Assembly: GCA_027490055.1 (NCBI GenBank)
Contig: JAIXYV010000044.1
Coordinates: 1-33,144, forward strand
DNA: 33,144 nucleotides
Reading direction: 5' to 3'
DNA from: Bacteroidota bacterium
GTDB lineage: Bacteria > Bacteroidota > Bacteroidia > NS11-12g > UBA955
Part shown: positions 5,876 to 11,076 of the stretch, in pieces
Layout: the number at the start of each line of letters is the position of its first letter
Numbering within the stretch: the first letter of the stretch is position 1
Position numbers and translations under genes: made by a program
The notes under the pieces: generated by a model
Databases searched by the model: none
Seen by the model: the letters and a program-made list of their open reading frames with translations, nothing else
What the model was told of the DNA's origin: nothing

Positions 5876-6832
5876 TTAGCGGCGCAGTTTTAGAGAAAAT
5901 AAAATAACGGCACCAATGCACATCGGTAACACCAGGTTAAACAGATAAATCATCATACCCGGCACATACTCCAGACCGACAGCAGATTCGAATCCGCCAG
6001 ACAAGACAAGTGCAGGGACACTAACCCGAATGGCCAGATCTGTCAGTATAAAATTAGGAGAAATGGTTTGCAGTAAAAAGATACAGGCAACGGCCATCAT
6101 GGCATACCATACAGAGCTGAGTTCGGTAGGTGGAAACACTTGTATCATGATGGCATAAGGCAAAACGAATAATAGATACCTTAAAAACGAAAAGCCCAGC
6201 AAACGAAGTATATCGCCTTTCTTTAACAAACCGAGCGCCTCTTTAAGTGCAAGTACTAATGCCGACTCTCTGATAAAACGAAACTGAGGTAAATAGAAAT
6301 AACCAAATACCAGTAAAATTAAAAGTGCAATTGAAGAAACAAGGAAACTAACAGGCACTTCTATTGGCTGTATAACAAGAAAAGCCAGACTACCAAAGAT
6401 CAGTGTGATGAGTAATTGAGAGAAGCTGCCAGCAACAGACAAGATACCAGCACTAACTTTATTGGCATCCTTCACGTAGGCCAGTCGCCCCAGATACTCG
6501 CCCGTTCTATAAGGAAGCAACTGAGATACCGCAACGCCTGAAAGAACCGATTTAAAAGCTATTTTAAACGACTGCAATTCGAGTTTGCAGACAAGGTATT
6601 GCCATTTACGGGTTTCGACGCCCCAATTGAGCAATGAGAACAAAAGAAGAATAAGATACCAGTACCAGTCGAGTCGACTTAAGGCATCTCCTAATGTTTC
6701 GAGTGATACGTTCGGATTTTTAAAAAACTTTTTATAGAGTATTAAGGCAATGAAAGCGGGCACAAGCCATTTAATGACTTTAAAGACCGATGGCCAATTG
6801 ACATTTTTTAGTATCTTTGTTTTGTTTTGCAA
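5876..6832 (-). CDS. Lysylphosphatidylglycerol synthase TM-region (YbhN/AglD-like) family protein
   Basis: A 318-residue integral membrane protein with about eight hydrophobic helices and short basic loops. The pattern [27 protein letters not shown] (about residues 88-114) matches the conserved core of the UPF0104/LPG-synthase transmembrane family, where an '...P.R.GE..R...' motif is typical. There is no C-terminal aminoacyl-transferase domain, so it is not a full MprF. Members are often found beside glycosyltransferases, as here, and are thought to move or modify lipids. The only plausible start is TTG at 6832 (an in-frame TAA occurs two codons upstream), which overlaps the ruvC start on the opposite strand by six bases. 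Confidence 0.8.
6812..6819 (+). promoter_or_regulatory. Candidate -7 box (TATCTTTG) for ruvC
   Basis: TATCTTTG is a perfect match to the Bacteroidota -7 consensus TAnnTTTG. No TTG lies at the usual 17-23 nt upstream; TTG at 6798-6800 is only 11 nt away. It would place the transcript start near 6823, four bases before the TTG start or about 43 bases before the internal ATG at 6866. Confidence 0.35.
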
Positions 6833-7426
6833 CGCTTATTACCAGAAAATTTTGATAGGATCGTCATGGGCATCGACCCAGGTACAAATATAATGGGTTA
6901 TGGTGTAGTTGGCTTAGTGGGGAAAGAATATTATTTACTCAGTATAGGTATTATTCGTCTGGATAAGTTAGAAGACCATGCTTTAAAGCTCAAACATATC
7001 TTCGAGCGGGTAACGGGACTGATAGAAAGCTACAAACCCGACGAGCTGGCCATTGAGGCGCCTTTCTATGGAAAGAATGTACAGTCGATGTTAAAACTTG
7101 GGCGTGCTCAGGGTGTAGCCATAGCGGCGGCTCTAATGCGTCAGATTCCGATTTACGAATATCAGCCACGAAAAATAAAACTCAGCATTACTGGATCAGG
7201 TAATTCAAGCAAAGAGCAGGTAGCAGAGATGCTGCAGCGCTTATTGCAATTTAAAGACATGCCAACACATCTGGATGCTACTGATGGACTGGCAGCTGCC
7301 ATGTGTCATATCTTTCAGTTCAGTCCGCGTAGTTTCGGCGAAAAATCTACCAAGAGCTCACGTGCCAAAACATCTGGTTCGTGGGAAAGCTTTGTTAATA
7401 ACAACAAAGACCGGGTTAAAAAGTAA
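6827..7426 (+). CDS. ruvC: Crossover junction endodeoxyribonuclease RuvC
   Basis: A 199-residue protein (counting from TTG 6827) with the RuvC fold. Catalytic acidic residues are visible: Asp17 in MGIDPGT, Glu77 in AIEAPF, and Asp150/Asp153 with His148 in [10 protein letters not shown]. The basic/Gly segment [13 protein letters not shown] (120-132) is typical. RuvC resolves Holliday junctions with RuvAB. The length is slightly above the E. coli protein because of a Ser/Lys-rich tail. Start choice is uncertain: TTG 6827 gives 13 residues before MGIDPG, with a stop codon six codons upstream; ATG 6866 would leave only three residues before the first catalytic Asp, short for the family. It converges with the anti-sigma gene with a 7-bp gap. 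Confidence 0.95.
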
Positions 7427-7433
7427 GAAAAAT

Positions 7434-8747
7434 TTATTTAAACGTGTAGTTCAATCCGAAACTTACACCATAGTTGAGCAGATCAGCTTTGTAATAATGC
7501 TTGATAAATGGCTTATGGAAATAGTCGATGAAAGGTGCAACCTCAAAATTCAACTGATCGTATAAGCGATAATTCATTGCCAGACGCACTCTGCTAGACA
7601 ATAAATTTTTAAACACTATTCCCTTATCTACCTGAGTGAATGGCACTGCTGCTTTGTTAATACTATCATAGAAGAAGGTATTAGCTTTGGTCAGCAATTT
7701 ATAATTAGCCCCGTAGCTTAAATCGAGTTTAAAATCGCCTCTTTCAAGTATTGCTCTTGAGATATTTAACGAGAGCCCAAATACTTTAAAGTTCTGGTTC
7801 ACTTTATTGTGGTTGGTACCCGCGAGGTACAAATTAGCAGTATCATGAAGACGACCAACATACTCGGAAGGCAGAACAGTTTCAAAATTCGGACGGAACA
7901 CCTGCATATAAGTAGTGTCATGATGATCGCCCATAGACGTGGTTTGTCTGAACTGAGCACTGTGAATGCCAAGAGAGAAATTCCATTTCTTCATTTTGAC
8001 ACCACCGTAAAGACTAACTTCTGAACCCTTTCCTTCCGGGAGTTTCATTAGTTCAGGTTCAATATGGATATTGGTAGAAAGCAAACCATAGTTCATTCCA
8101 ATGAAGTATTGGAAGCGTTTGGTTTGTGGTTTTACACGAGGAATAATGTCCTGAGGCATAGAGAAAGATTTGAAATAACGCTTGATACGCACCAGAGCCA
8201 GGTATCTGTTAATATCGGTCTCGTTATAGTTAGAAATTATTAAATCATTAATAGGGGCTTGACTAATGATATCAGGAGTTTTATCAGGACTGAAAGAATT
8301 GTAGTTATCATTGTTAATAGTGGTGTTGGTTTTAGCTATTGGAGTAAAAGGTTTTACGCTTTTAGTCGGCATTTTAGTAGCAGCGGCTTTTGCTTGCTTT
8401 GTTTGGACTTCAGCAGTACCAGATGGCGATGCAGCAAGTTCAAGTTTTGAAGTTTCATCAGGCAATGCATTGCTTGATGTATTAGGATCAATTTCGGCAG
8501 TTGTATTCGTTGCAGTATTAGTCAATTGTATTGACGAATCTGCTGAAGAAGAACTGGAGTTAAAATACCACAAGCCCGTTACGGCGAGTAACAGGACGAG
8601 GCCAGAGGTTAAAAAGCGCCAGAACAGGATCCATCTTCTGCGGTAAGGGTATTGGGGAATTTGAGCTTCAATAAACTCCCAGGCCCCTTCTTTAAGAGGG
8701 AGCTCCATTTTATCAGCCATATCTTTTAATTCATTATCTTCAACCAT
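7434..8747 (-). CDS. Anti-sigma-like protein with inner-membrane helix and C-terminal beta-barrel-like domain
   Basis: A 437-residue protein. Residues 1-36 are cytoplasmic with an anti-sigma-like motif (PLKEGAWEFIEAQIP). One membrane helix at about 39-62 (ILFWRFLTSGLVLLLAVTGLWYF) is followed by a low-complexity Ser/Thr/Ala/Lys linker of about 130 residues. The last 240 residues or so are built of alternating amphipathic strands (YFIGMNYGLLSTNIHI, SLYGGVKMKKWNFSLGIHS, LLNYGVSFGLNYTFK), ending in an aromatic-rich strand as outer-membrane barrels do. It begins two bases after the ECF sigma gene, so it is probably its membrane-bound regulator. If the C-terminus is truly an outer-membrane barrel, one chain would span both membranes. 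A purely periplasmic beta-rich sensor is the alternative. Confidence 0.7.
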   Translation of the reverse strand: MVEDNELKDMADKMELPLKEGAWEFIEAQIPQYPYRRRWILFWRFLTSGLVLLLAVTGLWYFNSSSSSADSSIQLTNTATNTTAEIDPNTSSNALPDETSKLELAASPSGTAEVQTKQAKAAATKMPTKSVKPFTPIAKTNTTINNDNYNSFSPDKTPDIISQAPINDLIISNYNETDINRYLALVRIKRYFKSFSMPQDIIPRVKPQTKRFQYFIGMNYGLLSTNIHIEPELMKLPEGKGSEVSLYGGVKMKKWNFSLGIHSAQFRQTTSMGDHHDTTYMQVFRPNFETVLPSEYVGRLHDTANLYLAGTNHNKVNQNFKVFGLSLNISRAILERGDFKLDLSYGANYKLLTKANTFFYDSINKAAVPFTQVDKGIVFKNLLSSRVRLAMNYRLYDQLNFEVAPFIDYFHKPFIKHYYKADLLNYGVSFGLNYTFK

Positions 8748-8749
8748 CG

Positions 8750-9292
8750 TTACACTTTAGTTTTAGCTGTTAAAATTTCTGTTAGTTGTTTGCGCGCTCT
8801 ATGGATATTCGACCTTACACTCGATTCTTCTAATCCGAGCTGACCAGCGATATCCGAGTAGCTATACCCTTCGATAGCGAACAGGTTAAGCACGGTGCGC
8901 ATGGTAGCAGGCAATTGAGTAATGGCAGCCATTACCCTATCCATTTCTAAAAAATCCTGATATACCGGTTCATCGTAAGCGATGTGTTCGGCATCTTCAA
9001 GAGATGTTTTAAATTTATTTTTTTCTCTTCTAATATGTTCCAGGCAACAATTGACCATAATTCTTCTTATCCATGATTTAAGAGCACTTTCGCCTCGGTA
9101 GCTTTCAAGTTTTTTAAATACTTTAATAAAACCCTCCTGCATCAAATCGTGCGCAGTATCGTAATCGTTAACATACCTGTAGCACAATCCCAGCATCTGT
9201 TTGGCATAGGTTTCAAACAAACGCTTTTGAGCGGACTTGTCGTTTTTGAGACAAGCTTTTACGAGGTCTTTATCAGTTTGTAAGTCGGTCAA
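8750..9292 (-). CDS. ECF-type RNA polymerase sigma factor
   Basis: A 180-residue sigma-70 family ECF protein. Region 2 covers about residues 22-90, with YRYVNDYDTAHDLMQEGFIKVFKKLESYRGES and SWIRRIMVNCCLEHIRR. Region 4 covers about 120-175, with LPATMRTVLNLFAIEGYSYSDIAGQLGLEESSVRSNIHRARKQL split by the helix-turn-helix. It directs polymerase to a specific promoter set when released by its anti-sigma partner, the next gene two bases downstream. The likely start is TTG 9292, because a TGA lies six codons upstream and no ATG precedes region 2. Its regulon cannot be read here, and no promoter was found upstream. Confidence 0.93.
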   Translation of the reverse strand: MTDLQTDKDLVKACLKNDKSAQKRLFETYAKQMLGLCYRYVNDYDTAHDLMQEGFIKVFKKLESYRGESALKSWIRRIMVNCCLEHIRREKNKFKTSLEDAEHIAYDEPVYQDFLEMDRVMAAITQLPATMRTVLNLFAIEGYSYSDIAGQLGLEESSVRSNIHRARKQLTEILTAKTKV

Positions 9293-9327: not shown

Positions 9328-9367
9328 AGAAAAAATGTGTGTCATAACCGAGGCTATGACACACATT
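9328..9367 (-). terminator. Intrinsic terminator of the DUF4397 gene
   Basis: A perfect 13-bp inverted repeat pairs 9334-9346 (AATGTGTGTCATA) with 9355-9367, with an 8-base loop. Read on the minus strand, the hairpin begins about nine bases after the stop of the DUF4397 gene and runs into six T residues. This is a textbook intrinsic terminator. Confidence 0.85.
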
Positions 9368-9375
9368 ATATTGAT

Positions 9376-11076
9376 TTATTTTACTAATGTGGTAGTATAT
9401 ACCCCATTATCTGAGAAAATTGACACCATATATAAGCCTTTACTCAATGACTCAATGTTAACAATTGTTGAATTTAGTGTTTCAGACACTGTTTTTCCGT
9501 CTGGCGTCATCACCACTACTTTATTAACTTTAGAAGCAGTTTCTACTTCGAAGTAGGCGTTAGCCGGATTAGGGAATACTCTGAAATCATTGCCAGTTGA
9601 CACTGTATTAACTGAAGTGGTATTAACCGGCAACTGAATCACTCTACCAGCAGCTGTTACAACAAACAGACCGAAAGCCTGACCAGCATCTTTACCTGCA
9701 GGCACGTTAGGTGATAAGAAACCAGAAGCAATAACGGTGATAGCACTGTCTCTGAAAGCTGAAAGTGGTGCACTGTAAGAGGCAACAATATCAGAACCAC
9801 CAGCAGGCAAGATACTAACAACAATATCAGAAGCATTTGTTGTGATCAAATCTGTTCCATCTGTAAATTCAATACCTTCTGCCAGTAAAGCACCATTAGC
9901 ACCACCAGCTCTAACGTCTACAGCAGGTGCATCAGTGCTACCGTGTATGATACCCAGAGTTACTTTTCCAGACTCTAGTGCAGACACTGAACCCACATAA
10001 CCAGTGATATCAAATACTACACTGCTACCATTTTCGTATTTAGCAGTATCGATTACACCCTGAGCAGTAGCGATAATTTCGGCACCACCTGGAAGGTTAA
10101 GATCGAGGTTGTAGATGCTTTGAGCAATAGAGGTGCTGCTTGCAGGAGCCACCCAAACTGTGAAGTTTTTATTAGCTGGAATGCTTAAGAAAGGCGTTGC
10201 TTTTCTGAAAGCAAAATTATCTAATAAAATTTGAGGCGTACCTGTTAAATTGGTGTAAATATCTACACTTGAAGCTAAGGCATCAGGTGCATTGTGAATG
10301 ATTTGCAATTTAGCAGTCGTTTGTATTGGCAGTTCGATAACAGCACCACCAGATAAAACAGCAAATAAACCAAAACCTTTACCATTCAAATTTTTAGAAG
10401 GATCAAGGAAACCAGAAGCGAAAGCAATGATTGGTTCGCCAGCTGCATTTAAGGCTTTCAATGGTGCAGCATAGGTAAACAAAGCCGCCTCTTCGCCTGG
10501 CAAACTAACATTGATGAAATAGTCGGCATTAGGCACTGTGATATAAGCTGTATTGTCGCCATAAGCAGCAGCTTCAGCAAGATACACAGCATCTCCTACA
10601 GTAGTCTTCGTAAAGGCACTGATATCAACAGCCGGAGCATCTGTAGAACCGTGATAAACCAATAGTTTATTATCAGAACCAGATTTAGTTGTTTCGGCAT
10701 TGGCAATTACCTTTAATTCGAAACCTTTTTGAGGTGTAAAGCCATTTTGAAAATGACCTTGAGCGATCAACACAAATTTGCCGTTGGCAGGCAGGTTAAA
10801 ACCAAAACCAATTACAGAATCGGCAATGGAACTACTGCTTTTTCCAGCAAATACAATTCGGATTGGTCTTTCTGCCGGAGCAGAGATAAAAGGGGTAGCA
10901 GTTCTGAAGGCGAAATTATTTCTCAATAAGGTAGAGGTACCATTATCGAGTAAATACATATCAACCGAATCCAAAGCTGGATCAGCACTGTTGTGAATAG
11001 CCATAACACTGGCAGTTTGTGCTTTTGAAGCAAACATTGCAAAAGCAACGCAGAGGGTACTAATTATTTTTTTCAT
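9376..11076 (-). CDS. Secreted DUF4397-repeat protein with type A T9SS sorting domain
   Basis: A 566-residue protein. A signal peptide (about 1-19, ending ASKAQ) precedes two tandem copies of a unit of about 235 residues. Each begins with a DUF4397-like domain (SVMAIHNSADPALDSVDMY at about residue 23; LQIIHNAPDALASSVDIY at about residue 257) and continues with a second related half (LLVYHGSTDAPAVDI; LGIIHGSTDAPAVDV) ending GFGLFAV/AFGLFVV...G.VI.LP. The last 75 residues or so form a type A sorting domain (FRVFPNPANAYFEVE ... GLYMVSIF) that targets the protein through T9SS to the surface or medium. The biological role of DUF4397 is unknown. The gene is monocistronic, with terminators on both sides; no TAnnTTTG match was found upstream. 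Confidence 0.85.
   Translation of the reverse strand: MKKIISTLCVAFAMFASKAQTASVMAIHNSADPALDSVDMYLLDNGTSTLLRNNFAFRTATPFISAPAERPIRIVFAGKSSSSIADSVIGFGFNLPANGKFVLIAQGHFQNGFTPQKGFELKVIANAETTKSGSDNKLLVYHGSTDAPAVDISAFTKTTVGDAVYLAEAAAYGDNTAYITVPNADYFINVSLPGEEAALFTYAAPLKALNAAGEPIIAFASGFLDPSKNLNGKGFGLFAVLSGGAVIELPIQTTAKLQIIHNAPDALASSVDIYTNLTGTPQILLDNFAFRKATPFLSIPANKNFTVWVAPASSTSIAQSIYNLDLNLPGGAEIIATAQGVIDTAKYENGSSVVFDITGYVGSVSALESGKVTLGIIHGSTDAPAVDVRAGGANGALLAEGIEFTDGTDLITTNASDIVVSILPAGGSDIVASYSAPLSAFRDSAITVIASGFLSPNVPAGKDAGQAFGLFVVTAAGRVIQLPVNTTSVNTVSTGNDFRVFPNPANAYFEVETASKVNKVVVMTPDGKTVSETLNSTIVNIESLSKGLYMVSIFSDNGVYTTTLVK

Follow-up and report, generated by a model that had tools for sequence, protein, structure and literature searches.

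In a 33,144-nucleotide contig of a Bacteroidota bacterium (NCBI GenBank assembly GCA_027490055.1, JAIXYV010000044.1, positions 1 to 33,144; hereafter, the window), the gene of an ECF sigma factor is followed by a gene whose product joins an anti-sigma-like N-terminus, one transmembrane (TM) helix, a long tether, and an outer-membrane barrel in one chain. This arrangement, which had been proposed in a preliminary description of the locus, is supported by AlphaFold2 modeling and Pfam searches, and the barrel anti-sigma layout is confirmed to be real and widespread. The N-terminus probably holds the sigma factor, while the outer end is, according to the structure model, an outer-membrane barrel. 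The reading of the pair as a trans-envelope sensor is plausible and has already been described for relatives.

The sigma factor is recognized in NCBIfam by general ECF models alone (Table 1), and the ATG of the anti-sigma gene lies 2 bases past the sigma stop codon. Because a strong terminator cuts the sigma gene off from the upstream DUF4397/T9SS gene, the sigma and anti-sigma genes look like a two-gene unit. A basic transcription unit shared with the upstream DUF4397 gene is rejected on account of this terminator, despite the gene order being kept in the closest relative. A convergent RuvC gene lies 3′ of the 437-aa open reading frame. Around the sigma gene, predicted promoters of the E. coli type scored no better than those in shuffled sequences.

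Table 1. Coordinates of the features discussed in the text (positions in the window, unless a locus identifier precedes them)
Feature	Position	Strand	Basis or context
RuvC gene	6827..7426	+	
Dma/Reo-type anti-sigma with barrel, 437 aa	7434..8747	-	AlphaFold2
Residues 213-437, predicted 8-stranded OmpA-like outer-membrane barrel	7437..8111	-	AlphaFold2; structure matches
Residues 65-212, low-complexity periplasmic tether, mostly disordered, holds helix 176-191	8112..8555	-	AlphaFold2, composition
Residues 34-64, predicted inner-membrane helix, starts Arg-Arg-Arg	8556..8648	-	AlphaFold2, composition
Residues 1-33, putative sigma-binding motif	8649..8747	-	AlphaFold2; motif common to neighbors of related ECF genes
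ECF sigma factor, 180 aa, TTG start	8750..9292	-	Pfam Sigma70_r2 (E 5e-18) and Sigma70_r4_2 (E 1e-16); TIGR02937, 100 bits
Intrinsic terminator, 15-pair stem	9334..9367	-	Between DUF4397/T9SS gene and sigma gene
DUF4397/T9SS gene	9376..11076	-	Upstream of sigma gene
Protein of 2081 aa	23902..30147	-	IgGFc_binding domain, about 11 PKD repeats, CHU_C signal
DUF4397 or DUF4397-like gene	L176:1575-3275	+	Adjoins a closest copy
DUF4397 or DUF4397-like gene	L006:985-1698	-	Adjoins a closest copy
DUF7619/T9SS-cargo gene	L167:1628-3988	-	
DUF7619/T9SS-cargo gene	L169:73-2538	+	
DUF7619/T9SS-cargo gene	L170:348-2798	+	
DUF7619/T9SS-cargo gene	L174:92-2524	+	
DUF7619/T9SS-cargo gene	L175:2245-4812	-	
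CHU_C-ended anti-sigma	L154:2010-2894; L196:6510-7394	-	Contig C49, this genome
Paralogue with three motif copies (L004/L152)	L152:1179-2813	-	Contig C16, this genome
Anti-sigma with six motif copies	L136:4533-6554		
Anti-sigma with about seven motif copies	L133:4684-6738		

The anti-sigma was modeled in AlphaFold2 from an alignment of the window protein with 37 relatives, all drawn from the ECF loci of the sigma search described below. In the model, two short N-terminal helices (residues 3-13 and 22-29, with a conserved Trp23) precede a long helix that opens with PYRRRW and contains a hydrophobic segment. The first of the short helices is shorter than in the family consensus. Because the long helix begins Arg-rich (positive-inside), the N-terminus is predicted to lie in the cytoplasm, with residues 34-64 as the single TM helix. 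Most of residues 67-175 have pLDDT values below 50, and the linker of residues 65-175 is rich in Ser, Thr, Asn, Ala, and Pro (63% S/T/N/P/A/Q); the one helix predicted within the tether comes just before the barrel. From the helix end to the first strand the model counts 148 residues, followed by 224 in the barrel, close to the linker of about 130 and C-terminus of about 240 residues given in the preliminary description.

Neither a Pfam match nor a credible NCBIfam match was found for the window protein. One NCBIfam hit, SrfA (E 0.026), spans the TM and low-complexity stretch, is far under the cut-off, and was discarded. Neither the complete protein nor the motif profile retrieved a meaningful sequence match from the PDB. 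At the N-terminus, where the motif consists of about 35 aa and two helices, Pfam detected no class I anti-sigma domain (RseA/ChrR/RsiW-like). The layout is nevertheless not a product of chance, because an orthologue of 46% identity shares it and the family profile has many full-length matches.

The C-terminal part of the model is not a globular, non-barrel fold: it has eight long strands within residues 213-436, and for the majority of these strands pLDDT exceeds 90. In structure comparisons (Foldseek, VIA-align), residues 208-437 fit 8-stranded outer-membrane barrels, with OmpA as the top match (Z 19.0 over 177 residues at 3.4 Å), followed by NspA (Z 18.5) and the OprF N-domain (Z 16.9 at 2.0 Å). 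Alternation of residues between the two sides of the strands, summed over all eight, exceeds that of within-strand shuffles (P = 0.005), although single strands are mostly not significant on their own. The last strand is amphipathic and aromatic and ends the chain with YGVSFGLNYTF-K. The barrel of the window subfamily is homologous to that of Bacteroidales fusions located beside the same type of sigma factor (hhalign, 99.2%, E 2e-19; 96.2% when the window sequence alone is compared).

As a single query, the window protein retrieved one full-length relative of the same layout from another genome (G013; the 46%-identity orthologue), one partial relative, and weak N-terminal matches, and it retrieved no relative from the genome contig collection. 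Because the window protein evolves fast, the sigma alignment was used to find relatives. A family profile built from 17 members finds 9 places in this genome and has matches in 58 of the 59 genomes from its GTDB family, up to 12 per genome. The same fusion beside ECF sigma genes, which the preliminary description had suggested looking for elsewhere, is widespread, and at every complete family locus that was read an ECF sigma gene adjoins the anti-sigma gene.

Adjacency was also tested from the sigma side, with a sigma query that returned 80 ECF loci, nearly all in Bacteroidota records. At 75 of them, the gene directly after the sigma gene encodes the motif [FI][DE]xx[FL][KR]..L......P....W..[IL]...L and a hydrophobic helix (74 by a Trp-anchored count, plus L133). 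The Trp is partly built into this anchored count, whereas neither the spacing nor the hydrophobic flanking positions depend on the anchor. The remaining five are a locus at a contig end (L149) and four sigma genes that have no motif gene right after them (L092, L094, L101, and L110), of which L094, L101, and L110 come from Mucilaginibacter. The same sigma/anti-sigma pair is also found on a short contig labeled as a Treponema MAG (L080, CAMNGY010000257.1), which is probably mis-binned Bacteroidota DNA.

The C-termini that follow the motif vary. The barrel is the commonest (OMP_b-brl_2 is matched by 26 of the 38 long members), and the others are T9SS signals or short forms of 220-280 aa with no known domain. 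In nine loci (L070, L071, L073, L074, L079, L081, L121, L131, and L138), the N-terminal motif and the TM helix are shared, but a CHU_C type IX secretion signal takes the place of the barrel, and some of these anti-sigmas contain PKD. Most of the CHU_C-ended loci belong to Flavobacteriales; L138 is from Crocinitomix catalasitica. This genome also encodes one CHU_C-ended anti-sigma, full-length relatives of which are found in most of the same-genus genomes searched. In this genome and in the seven relatives that were read, the gene order is sigma factor, CHU_C-ended anti-sigma, and a further secreted protein; wherever the gene of the latter is complete, it encodes a giant CHU_C protein of 1589-1916 aa.

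A second variation affects the N-terminus. Two to about seven tandem motif copies precede the TM helix in L152, L018, L136, L133, L135, L072, and L078, as though each chain were to bind several sigma molecules. We found no description of CHU_C-ended anti-sigmas or of tandem sigma-binding motifs in the literature open to search. Tentatively, we suggest that the anti-sigma module may be a phylum-wide cassette with an interchangeable outer end, and that in its CHU_C-ended form the T9SS machine itself might exert a pull on the anti-sigma or process it, which would make the sigma factor a direct readout of T9SS activity; we consider this a serious possibility, somewhat short of probable.

Genes of T9SS cargo recur around the family. 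After the sigma and barrel anti-sigma genes of several paralogues, there is a third gene that encodes a protein of about 800 aa with DUF7619 and a T9SS sorting tail; it is absent at the window locus. DUF4397 or DUF4397-like genes adjoin all three closest copies, two with a T9SS tail (Pfam) and the third lipoprotein-like by eye. Elsewhere in the window, a large gene encodes a CHU_C-ended protein with PKD repeats (Table 1). Because DUF7619/T9SS cargo follows several paralogues and a DUF4397/T9SS gene precedes the sigma gene in the closest relative as it does in the window, this sigma pair may have its partners or targets among T9SS surface proteins.

We propose that the two genes very probably form a sigma/anti-sigma pair of the Dma/Reo kind, in which the motif holds the sigma factor, a perturbation of the barrel is passed on through the tether, and proteolysis frees the sigma factor. 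The N-terminal two-helix motif would hold the co-encoded ECF sigma factor at the inner membrane, and the TM helix and disordered tether would run to the OmpA-type barrel, placed in the outer membrane by BAM. The barrel would be disturbed when the outer membrane is damaged, when barrel assembly fails, or by a surface ligand. The disturbed chain would then be degraded or altered, probably by an HtrA-type periplasmic protease and subsequently by an RseP-like M50 protease, releasing the sigma factor. The proteolytic relay is modeled on RseA-type systems, and this genome encodes two DegP/HtrA-type proteins and a single M50 protease, which is RseP-like and contains a PDZ stretch. Computation establishes the gene pair, its domain layout and barrel fold, the occurrence of the motif next to the sigma gene throughout the phylum, and both protease families in the genome; sigma binding, the two-membrane topology in the cell, the stimulus, and proteolysis are inferred. 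A linked-chain fold of a relative's sigma factor with its own motif, made from in-frame relatives with the intergenic stop read through as Gly, had a pTM of 0.42 and motif pLDDT of about 43-57 (six paired rows), and Foldseek recovered from it the ECF sigma fold only.

Within the Dma/Reo reading, the tethered barrel could instead be a reporter of BAM function integrated into the chain, detected in the periplasm only in its unfolded state, and not an inserted ligand receptor. In Phocaeicola, a toxin induces a pair of the same layout along with genes that a BamA inhibitor induces as well (PMC9308784), and the amphipathic aromatic end strand, YGVSFGLNYTF, would also suit such a role. However, many divergent paralogues with differing barrel loops (9 profile matches in one genome) are better explained by specific ligands or partners than by a single general signal, and the neighboring cargo genes differ among paralogues. 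We therefore regard the reporter variant as possible, on the doubtful side.

That the tether is cut soon after synthesis, leaving an ordinary OmpA-like protein and a separate anti-sigma, is unlikely. A disordered tether is open to proteases, and the HtrA and M50 proteases of the genome could act on it; yet the two halves stay fused, next to a sigma gene, across many divergent paralogues and orders, although separate genes could do the same job. Moreover, the tether is poorly conserved with no obvious common cut site, and the conserved protease site between the halves that would have spoken against the preliminary description is not evident there. A reading in which the protein is no anti-sigma, but a barrel protein that keeps its signal anchor uncleaved and is only a neighbor of the sigma gene, is very improbable. 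Although no Pfam anti-sigma domain was found and the linked-chain fold predicted no direct contact with confidence, it is the N-terminal motif, not the barrel, whose conservation downstream of sigma genes extends through the phylum, and published genes of the same layout behave genetically as anti-sigmas (PMC13088901, PMC9308784).

Class I anti-sigmas were found to adjoin only 6% of Bacteroidetes ECF sigma factors (PMC7406223), which leaves open how the others are held. The short Trp motif that follows 75 of the 80 ECF genes is a candidate answer for one sigma clade. The barrel-fused form shows that the published Dma/Reo design extends far outside gut Bacteroides and that single genomes hold multiple copies of it. 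The main value of our findings lies in this extension and in the CHU_C-ended and tandem-motif variants, which make a modular logic testable.

In FecA-FecR-FecI cell-surface signaling, three separate proteins are needed, among them a 22-strand TonB-dependent receptor. The window pair resembles this system in its chain of information from outer-membrane barrel through inner-membrane anti-sigma to ECF sigma factor, but it uses one chain with a fused 8-strand barrel and has no FecR domain (Pfam, AlphaFold2). The anti-sigmas RseA, which acts on sigma-E, and RsgI are single-pass proteins with an extracytoplasmic sensing part and no outer-membrane barrel. They share the single-pass design with the window protein, whereas the N-terminal domains differ and the barrel is present in the window protein only.

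The closest counterparts are from gut genera. The Dma proteins (Dma1-3) of B. thetaiotaomicron combine an N-terminal sigma-binding domain, a TM helix, a long disordered tether, and a C-terminal beta-barrel and adjoin ECF21 sigma factors; the Dma2 phenotype depends on its sigma factor, Das2 (PMC13088901). The same four parts, the sigma-binding one putative, are encoded beside an ECF sigma gene in the window, a likeness drawn from the published layout, the profile comparison having been made with other Bacteroidales fusions. Dma proteins have been reported only from Bacteroidota, also the phylum of the window protein. The lineages differ, however, and the window side has many paralogues per genome, with T9SS cargo genes beside several of them and near this locus, whereas Dma genes are accompanied by NigD genes or PULs. 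In addition, Dma3 carries its sigma factor in the same chain, while the window sigma factor has a separate gene.

The C-terminal outer-membrane barrel of the Phocaeicola anti-sigma later named Reo was described in 2022 (PMC9308784; PMC13114119), and disruption of its gene switches on the sigma regulon (PMC9308784). EcfO-Reo of B. fragilis and Phocaeicola vulgatus has been proposed to be an outer-membrane stress sensor (PMC9308784, PMC13114119). As in the window, the sigma gene is followed by that of a large anti-sigma that ends in a barrel and spans from cytoplasm to outer membrane, a topology predicted for the window protein; the EcfO-Reo regulon is partly known (nigD genes, O-antigen length). 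Because this layout has been published as Dma/Reo (PMC13088901, PMC9308784, PMC13114119), it is not new in kind, and the novelty with which the preliminary description presented it does not hold. Judged from its sequence, the window pair is a member of the Dma/Reo kind, with a layout published in 2022-2026, from a lineage that possesses a T9SS and does not belong to the gut genera.
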